From: Pseudoxanthomonas daejeonensis
Lineage (GTDB): Bacteria; Pseudomonadota; Gammaproteobacteria; Xanthomonadales; Xanthomonadaceae
NCBI RefSeq assembly: GCF_010093205.1
Contig: NZ_PDWN01000019.1
Location: forward strand, 1 to 64,000
Reading direction: 5' to 3'
Length of the DNA stretch: 64,000 nucleotides
The position numbers were made by a program, and so were the translations under genes. Positions 43,818 to 64,000 of the stretch are shown piece by piece. The notes beneath the pieces were generated by a model. The model searched no databases. It saw only the letters and a list, made by a program, of their open reading frames with translations, and was not told the origin of the DNA. Within the stretch, counting starts at the first letter, position 1; each line of letters starts with the position of its first letter.

Positions 43818-43845
43818 GCACGGCCCCGGTCATGCCGGGGACCGC

Positions 43846-43936
43846 GGAGAGGTGGCAGAGCGGTTGAATGTACCTGACTCGAAATCAGGCAGGCGTTTAT
43901 AGCGCCTCGAGGGTTCGAATCCCTCCCTCTCCGCCA
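43846..43936 (+). tRNA. tRNA-Ser (CGA)
   Basis: 91 nt with encoded CCA. Acceptor GGAGAGG/CCTCTCC; long variable arm; anticodon CGA in CTGACTCGAAATCAG, reading UCG. Confidence 0.95.
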
Positions 43937-43944
43937 GATTATTC

Positions 43945-43980
43945 AAGGGGTTGCGCTTCCGGCGTGACCCCTTTTGTTTT
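43945..43980 (+). terminator. Terminator after tRNA-Ser
   Basis: Stem AAGGGGT (43945-43951) and ACCCCTT (43967-43973), extended inside by further pairs around loop TTCCG, then TTGTTTT. Confidence 0.8.
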
Positions 43981-44047
43981 GGGGCCGTTACGCGGACCCC
44001 ACGGATGGGGGCGGTAGACTGTGTCGATCCCATAGACGCATCGACCC

Positions 44048-62693: not shown

Positions 62694-62861
62694 GTGCGGG
62701 GACCGCTTTCCCTGATATCGAACTTCCGCAGCGTCGGCATCCTTGTGCCGCCACCCGCGGTGGGGACTGGAATCCCCCCATCGACCTGGCACCGGCGGGC
62801 GAGCGGCGGCGCCGGTGGCCAGGAGCGGGGGCATCCCTTCCCGATGCAAAGGAACCTGCAC

Positions 62862-63341
62862 ATGAAGAACCTCGTATCGCTGTCGTTTTCGGCCGAAGAC
62901 CTGGCCGCGCTGGATGCCGCCTTGCTCGTGATCGAGCAGAAGCTGGGCGGCCTGGTCTCGCTCACCACCGCGGAGGTGCGCGGCCTGGCCAAGATGGGTG
63001 AGAAGTCCGAAGTGTTCTGCCGCAGCGTGCTGCAGGTGCTGCAGCAGAACCCGCAGGTGGTCACCCCGGCCCTGGGCCTGCCCGAGGCCAACGACGACCT
63101 GGCCGCGCTGGACGCGCTGCGCCCGCGGTTGCGCCGGCTCAAGCTGCTCACCACCCGCGGCGAGGACACCCTGCTGGCCCTGGGCGCGGACGTGATGTCG
63201 GCGGCGCTGGAGGGCTATGCGCTGCTGAAGGTCAGCGGGCGGGCGAGTGGGCTGGAGGACCAGCGGCGCGAGCTGGGCAGCCGGTTCGCGCGCGCCGGGC
63301 GCAAGGAGGACGAGGACGAGGAGGCGGTCGAGCCGGTGTGA
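62862..63341 (+). CDS. Conserved-looking helical protein of unknown function
   Basis: 159 residues, almost entirely alpha-helical by eye. Visible blocks: LVSLSFSAEDLAALDAALLVIEQKLGG, LTTAEVRGLAKMGEKSEVFCRSVLQVLQQNP, LAALDALRPRLRRLKLLTTRGEDTLLALGADVMSAALEGYALLK, then an acidic tail (EDEDEEAVEPV). No catalytic motif, signal or membrane helix; one cysteine. I do not recognise a named domain. ATG 62862 gives the best start; an ATG 18 bp upstream is in frame. Codon use is like the core genome. It is closed by a strong terminator and followed by the 21-bp repeat array, which makes the pair the most interesting unknown here. Confidence 0.75.
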   Translation: MKNLVSLSFSAEDLAALDAALLVIEQKLGGLVSLTTAEVRGLAKMGEKSEVFCRSVLQVLQQNPQVVTPALGLPEANDDLAALDALRPRLRRLKLLTTRGEDTLLALGADVMSAALEGYALLKVSGRASGLEDQRRELGSRFARAGRKEDEDEEAVEPV

Positions 63342-63376: not shown

Positions 63377-63409
63377 AAGCCGGGCGGAGGCGACTCCGCC
63401 CGGCTTTTT
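63377..63409 (+). terminator. Strong terminator after the 159-residue gene
   Basis: 13-bp perfect stem AAGCCGGGCGGAG (63377-63389) and CTCCGCCCGGCTT (63394-63406), tetraloop GCGA, then TTT (five Ts counting the stem end). Confidence 0.9.
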
Positions 63410-63440: not shown

Positions 63441-63734
63441 CGGGGGGTTCGAGTTCCCGGCACTGGCGCGCGAGTGTCGGGAACCGGGGCGCGAGTGTCT
63501 GGAACTGGCGCGCGGGTTCCGGGAACTGGTGTGCCAGTGTTTTCCATACGCGAATGCATGGAAAACACTCATGCGCGAGTGTTGGGAACTGGCGCGTCAG
63601 TATTTTCCATACGTGCGCGCATGGAAAATACTCATGCGTGAGTGCCTGGAACGGGTGCGCGAGTGTTTTCCATGCATGGGCGTATGGAAAATGGTGGTGC
63701 GTGAGTGTTGAGGACTGGCGCGTGGGTTCGGGCG
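63441..63734. repeat. Array of about fourteen 21-bp units with nested hairpins
   Basis: Units of exactly 21 bp run from 63441 (or 63462) to 63734; many begin ACTGGCGCG and carry CGAGTGT. Every third unit ends in TTTTCC and the following one carries ATGGAAAA, making three 12-bp-stem, 10-nt-loop hairpins at 63536-63569, 63599-63632 and 63662-63695, exactly 63 bp apart; the first two are perfect, the third is partly decayed. Smaller 5-bp hairpins (ACTGG/CCAGT at 63525-63538, ACTCA/TGAGT at 63630-63643) lie between. As 21 is a multiple of 3, frames stay open on both strands, so openness does not show coding. Strand of any transcript is unknown. Confidence 0.85.
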
Positions 63735-63851
63735 ATGCGCGGGGGGGCACCGAGCGCCGGGGGTTCGGTGATTGGAACGGGCGGGCCAGTTACCGGAGCT
63801 ACGAAGCTGCTGGCTGGGGAAAGTGCACCCTGACCCCTGTTTCACTTCACT

Positions 63852-64000
63852 TCACGGGGGCGTGGAGCCGTTCAGATCGTCTGGCGACTTGTCGACCCGG
63901 AAGAATCCGCGGGCGTCGGCCAACGACATCAGGCCGCTGTAGGTCTCCACCTCCTTGGGGGTGAGTTCGTCCCGGTCGACGCGTCCTTCCAGCTTGGCGT
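63852..64000 (-). CDS. 3' end of a gene running off the window
   Basis: About 49 C-terminal codons on the minus strand, stop TGA at 63854-63852. The readable end is LTPKEVETYSGLMSLADARG, then FFRVDKSPDDLNGSTPP. The upstream part lies beyond 64000. Acidic/polar and soluble-looking; not enough to name a family. The shape and codon use suggest a real gene. Confidence 0.6.
   Translation of the reverse strand, partial: AKLEGRVDRDELTPKEVETYSGLMSLADARGFFRVDKSPDDLNGSTPP

Follow-up and report, generated by a model that had tools for sequence, protein, structure and literature searches.

A small-protein gene associated with helix-phased, dyad-symmetric tandem arrays in Pseudoxanthomonas and related bacteria

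A tandem array of palindromic 21-bp units lies behind a small gene near the end of a 64,000-nucleotide stretch of a Pseudoxanthomonas daejeonensis contig (NZ_PDWN01000019.1, positions 1 to 64,000; the window), which raises the question of whether the array is a real element, whether it belongs with the gene, and whether it acts as DNA or as RNA. The features of the locus are the following.

62707 to 62861, plus strand: leader of the module, beginning at the 5′ edge of the block in common with the orthologous locus (homology of L052 and L063)
62862 to 63341, plus strand: gene for a 159-aa protein (MKNLVSLSFS...), mostly helical by prediction and of no named family (ORF; 14 members in the genus)
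63378 to 63409, plus strand: hairpin resembling an intrinsic terminator, with a T run (AGCCGGGCGGAG gcga CTCCGCCCGGCTTTTT), between gene and array (read directly)
63442 to 63735, no strand assigned: array of 21-bp period, about 13 units (TRF, autocorrelation, unit alignment, dyad phase)
63536 to 63569, no strand assigned: type B dyad 1 (12-10-12; R1 match, E 3.4e-12)
63599 to 63632, no strand assigned: type B dyad 2 (12-10-12; R1 match, E 1.3e-11)
63662 to 63695, no strand assigned: type B dyad 3, with an imperfect outer arm (R1 match, E 7.8e-11)

The array is located 3′ of the 159-aa gene and of that gene's terminator. Written in 21-bp rows, it showed about 13 units that stay in register between 63463 and 63735, in agreement with the run of 13 to 14 consecutive units counted in an earlier, sequence-only reading. 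That reading had also placed the three 12-10-12 hairpins correctly, at an exact spacing of 63 bp, and the one compensated pair that it described between hairpins 1 and 2 is present; hairpin 3 has a broken outer arm (AGTG.../...ATGGT). Autocorrelation over 63441–63740, tested at lags of 5–89, exceeded 0.42 only at lags 21, 42, 63, and 84 (0.48, 0.50, 0.65, and 0.46), and TRF independently reported a 21-bp array at 63462–63540 and a 63-bp array at 63519–63707. The higher-order period above the 21-bp unit is 63 bp. Two kinds of unit occur, A (ACTGGCGCGCCAGT-like) and B (TTTCCAT-10-ATGGAAA), with the dyad centre at the identical phase of the 21-bp frame in every unit. When the columns were permuted, none of 200 controls was as dyad-symmetric as the actual units (z 8.9). 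The array is not a chance pattern, and its dyad symmetry is under selection or, at the least, conserved.

Rfam returned ten matches over the whole window and none within the array; one of them, an sX4 sRNA match at 43834–44018, overlaps a tRNA match. Directly 3′ of the array, at 63817–63853, the window reads AAAGTGCACCCTGACCCCTGTTTCACTTCAC, and a GTGTCAGGGACAATT-like string was also seen at the module edges in L358 and L360.

The neighbouring gene belongs to a family with 14 members in the genus, the window gene included, distributed over 7 of 17 genomes. Homology of the window locus (L052) to contig C144 of genome G001 (L063) starts at L052:708, about 155 bp 5′ of the gene, and ends at L052:1724, with 78% over 1048 columns. 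No family in Pfam, NCBIfam, PHROGs, or PADLOC gave a match passing a cut-off. The best profile match was the Cas9 bridge helix (E 0.006, below its cut-off), and the best matches in a sequence search of the PDB had E values of 0.03 or worse. In a wider sample of the bacterial family (198 genomes, 54 genera), members were present in 66 genomes belonging to 23 genera, with up to 12 copies per genome, and 28 of 299 genomes of the order sample matched, including 11 from two other bacterial families. Farther away, the A2 search returned no match in the remaining 397 genomes of the phylum sample, and the A5 search of that sample returned one weak partial match (G556). A remote homologue of the protein (30% identity) was found in Thiodictyon (L396 4992–5459, plasmid pTs417). 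Inspection by eye showed no array in its 891 flanking bases, a hint of an older, array-free family.

The surroundings of the gene were also inspected. The motif TTCCTAC occurred in 13 of 115 leaders and 8 of 738 control windows; as it is confined to a subset of leaders, a universal leader motif was rejected. A conserved GC-rich leader with possible stems, about 150 bp 5′ of the gene, was seen in L262, L263, L269, L286, L297, L307, and others; members of a subclade have it in common, and it may be a structured region at the 5′ end. Large ORFs resembling type I methyltransferases recurred near the module (L266, L268, L272, L275, L276, L316, and L325), and N6_Mtase matches were obtained for 4 of 139 neighbour ORFs, a figure that has no control set and serves as a lead only; a location of the module in defence islands is one possible interpretation.

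Arrays homologous to that of the window do exist in relatives. A covariance model of the B unit found them in 7 of the 17 genomes of the genus, and under stricter filters it found none outside the genus among the 198 genomes of the family sample. A scan of genome contigs matched 51 stretches, of which the six with at least two separate matches were all from Pseudoxanthomonas, the rest being single matches. Window-type arrays occupy ten places in the genus, nine of which group into four loci by shared flanks.

Beside the window gene: G000, and G001 contig C144, with a gene-less counterpart on C221 (the tenth place)
GST/regulator locus: G000 and G014
Glycosyl hydrolase family 9 gene locus: G001 and G007
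Integrase gene locus: G005, G008, and G009 (tyrosine recombinase by Pfam)

The integrase of the last locus is one that we take to be an integron integrase. There, window-type arrays without a family gene stand closely 3′ of the integrase gene (L058 3129–4136 and 4150–4500 in G005, also L059 and L060), and G008 and G009 carry the array while the family gene is absent from the whole genome. In total, 8 of the 10 window-type arrays have no adjoining family gene, which counts against a reading in which the protein is the partner of the array. In G001:C221 (L047 3770–4215), the leader is fused straight to the array and the gene is gone, while C144 of the same bin retains it; this loss may show one route by which orphan arrays arise.

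Most members in the genus adjoin an array. Beside the 14 genus members there was mostly another 21-bp array, with a different sequence (downstream in seven, upstream in four, none seen in three), and the genome of the window itself contains three gene-array pairs (C10, C31, and C13) together with an orphan array on C1. Outside the genus, 80 loci with full-length members from 42 genomes and 18 genera were analysed; these were the top of the family match list rather than a random sample, and weaker matches were handled as a separate set. In a matched scan that tried every period from 8 to 70, 63 of the 160 near windows contained an array, compared with 2 of 160 windows at 2.5–3.6 kb, where distant windows missing at contig ends were scored as having no array. 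A scan with finer steps found an array within about 1.1 kb at 64 of the 80 loci, in 17 genera (score >0.10; 12 of the 64 scored only 0.10–0.12, just above the threshold), and detected none at the other 16. The array was downstream of the gene in 49 cases and upstream in 15.

The association was replicated in the two other bacterial families (f11/f12), with arrays at 20 of 25 loci and in 2 of 50 far windows. Among divergent or weaker members, 11 of 15 had an array (4/4 for L381–L384 and 7/7 for L389–L395), the four low-scoring homologues L385–L388 having none. Since the loci are related by descent, these tests overstate their independence. The association of gene with array greatly exceeds what chance would give, in at least 18 genera and two more families. 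Seven places far from the gene scored above 0.12, of which L275 and L305 look like coding or simple repeats. Further 21-bp arrays, at distances above 1.3 kb from the family gene, were seen at L273 10515, L276 8718, L292 8530, L306 7820, and L289 8246 (oriented coordinates), the last adjoining a weak remnant of the gene.

The geometry of these arrays is uniform. The periods were 20–22, 40–44, or 63–66 bp in 63 of 64 arrays and 53 bp in one, in a scan that covered 8–70 bp, so that a spacing near two turns of the DNA helix is constant across unrelated array sequences. Dyad symmetry, defined as no more than 2 of 200 column permutations being as good, was found in 50 of 70 arrays and was not found in 20, and the dyad phase learnt on the first half of an array was confirmed in the second half for 61 of 70. 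Array sequence thus varies from one paralogue to another, with a unit length of about two helical turns and dyad symmetry retained. Open frames run across the window array because 21 is divisible by three; a coding reading was rejected, since in 19 of the 64 arrays the period is not.

Within this constant geometry, the letters follow the protein. Array similarity tracked protein similarity, also between genera (Mantel test, 0/300 permutations), and the mean number of shared 8-mers rose from about 10–12 below 55% protein identity to 27 at 65–75% and 46 at 75–90%. Gene and array diversify together, and homology between loci is often bounded by the edges of the module.

Linkage, period, and dyads together lead us to infer that the adjoining protein binds the array. 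In the reading that we prefer, to which we assign a probability of roughly one half, the array would be a DNA-level platform and one half of a two-part module, whose other half would be the small, probably helical adjoining protein. Protein dimers would bind the dyads along one face of the DNA and, lined up next to one another, would build a nucleoprotein array, with a separate repeat for each paralogue. Less firmly, such an assembly might have a local role on the chromosome, such as compaction, insulation, partition-like or anchoring activity, or the self-maintenance of a small accessory element. Several results are counted against the platform. The strongest are the orphan arrays (8 of the 10 places in the genus, with two genomes that lack any family gene), the acidic median pI of the family (5.7, not basic), and a low-confidence structure prediction made from two sequences only (mean pLDDT 39.9). 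The others are the 16 array-less loci among the 80 together with L385–L388, the 12 arrays that score just above the threshold, and the 20 of 70 arrays that are not dyadic.

A passive satellite, in which slippage, unequal crossing-over, and template switching at quasi-palindromes would expand and homogenise the repeats while the gene merely travels along, with no function for the host, is in our judgement unlikely. Units are indeed homogenised within arrays (e.g., L332, L288, and L260), orphan arrays persist, and template switching can generate compensated changes. A decayed array of the window type, recognized by eye, follows the integrase at the corresponding place in G015 (L165) and would also fit passive decay. 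However, this explanation does not account for the common helical period and the dyads of unrelated sequences beside one gene family, nor for the enrichment of arrays near that family.

Alternatively, gene, leader, and array might form a small element moved by a recombinase acting in trans, with the array as its recognition or target region in the manner of REP/RAYT elements. In favour of this, homology in close pairs often starts 114–195 bp 5′ of the gene and stops with the array. Nine pairs have at least 95% protein identity, and three of these (L358/L359, L360/L362, and L365/L366, the last with both copies in one genome) share nothing else in the fetched flanks; L297/L298 is another pair with homology ending at the module edges. 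Pairs without homology beyond the module numbered 41 of 58, which is an upper bound because L307/L319 scored zero despite a shared flank segment of 492 bp. The presence of as many as 12 copies in one genome and the gene-less derivative in G001:C221 would suit such mobility as well. However, the family has no transposase or HUH domain, terminal repeats and target duplications are not established, and the array switches sides of the gene (49 downstream, 15 upstream), so that we consider a mobile-element substrate quite improbable. An origin from phages or plasmids was rejected: blastn of the array against plasmid and phage collections and tblastn of one member (L157) against 72,556 plasmids and the phage collection found nothing, and an A2 scan of viral contigs found no relative of the gene. 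A pattern search for the array matched two viral contigs.

The sequence-only reading had proposed selection on the structure of RNA or single-stranded DNA. This interpretation is supported in part: the dyad symmetry and the non-random nature of the pattern stand, and homologous arrays exist; the proposed selection is less supported. Predicted RNA folding of the window array was far better than that of shuffles on both strands (z −11.3 and −12.8), a point for an RNA-level element, but such folds are given by any palindromic array. The covariation that had been claimed for the hairpins was not significant among 31 distinct homologous units from nine arrays: the score was reached by 37 of 500 shuffles, 83.9% of cells were paired compared with 82.3% in shuffles, and one inner pair was mismatched in 17 of the 31 units. 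Nor was paired covariation found among the 35 arrays with the strongest dyad symmetry (mean z −0.02, pooled Z 0.83), where the power for any single array is limited. A pooled value over all 70 arrays (Z 4.9) was set aside because the arrays tested had also served to choose the dyad phase, and because most of the excess was contributed by weakly dyadic arrays. In the 35 arrays the two sides of the dyads vary independently, which speaks for the half-sites of a protein dimer on DNA, as a selected RNA stem would not behave in this way.

A transcribed array of hairpins that binds the protein or another factor, as a type III antitoxin, guide array, or sponge, is consequently quite unlikely in our view. 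The pairing of a gene for a protein of about 150 aa with tandem repeats is the layout of type III toxin-antitoxin systems too, and subclades contain repeats of the conserved leader. However, a hairpin RNA has no reason to hold two DNA helical turns per unit, and the array is usually outside the transcript of its gene, being mostly beyond the terminator or upstream of the leader. A terminator-like hairpin was found 3′ of the gene in 29 of the 49 loci with a downstream array, compared with 3 of 400 random windows that were not matched to gene ends.

The DNA platform can be compared with known systems. In the ParR/parC, TubR/tubC, and iteron-Rep systems, a small protein is encoded beside a tandem array of its own DNA sites, with a spacing set by the helix. 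The module shares the small-protein gene and the helix-spaced tandem array, the binding here being our proposal. In contrast to those systems, its family matched none of their proteins and the module is chromosomal, L157 having no tblastn match in the plasmids, and no partition ATPase/NTPase or replication gene was a recurrent neighbour among the 25 most frequent of 113 Pfam families (139 neighbour ORFs).

REP/BIME sequences, which go with RAYT transposases (PMC2817692), are intergenic palindromes at regular spacing that are linked to a gene and spread over variable places, as are the palindromes of the module. Unlike them, the module has no transposase domain (no Y1/HUH or other transposase family appeared in the Pfam matches of its members), its array sequence varies between paralogues, and its copies are few and adjoin the gene. 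TIGR-Tas loci (PMC12045711) have an array upstream or downstream of the gene, with a repeat that is conserved inside each locus but differs from one locus to the next, and the module arrays agree in all of these respects. However, no Nop domain was detected in 15 A5 members at E ≤ 10, with HMM filters that may miss very remote relatives, and most arrays lack clear hypervariable spacers of 9 nt: the least conserved 9-column stretch was above the null in 47 of 56 arrays (clearly in 24) and at or below the null mean in 9, and a dyad lattice is present instead. With ToxIN, a type III toxin-antitoxin system (PMC8860590), the module shares a small-protein gene, adjoining tandem repeats, and a terminator. 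It differs in its predicted helical protein, its helical DNA period, and an array 3′ of the gene's terminator in most loci, and no ToxN/AbiQ-like toxin was matched by Pfam or PADLOC in the members scanned.

No description of such a gene-array module was found in full-text searches of open-licence papers, and a small-protein gene with a helix-phased, mirror-symmetric array is apparently an undescribed genetic module. More tentatively, and as a possibility rather than an expectation, it may be a movable module, complete in itself and widespread in Xanthomonadales, whose DNA is conserved in geometry and not in sequence. Each paralogue would then have a private, co-evolved, helix-phased satellite, and one genome would carry several orthogonal pairs, like a set of private bacterial centromeres or anchors. 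If this is true, the module would be an undescribed chromosomal element, comprising an unnamed protein family and arrays that hold helical phase and dyads while their letters turn over completely. It would provide a naturally occurring set of orthogonal pairs of protein and DNA array, allow co-evolution between a protein and its satellite DNA to be tested in bacteria, and account for intergenic tandem repeats of a kind that annotation has overlooked.
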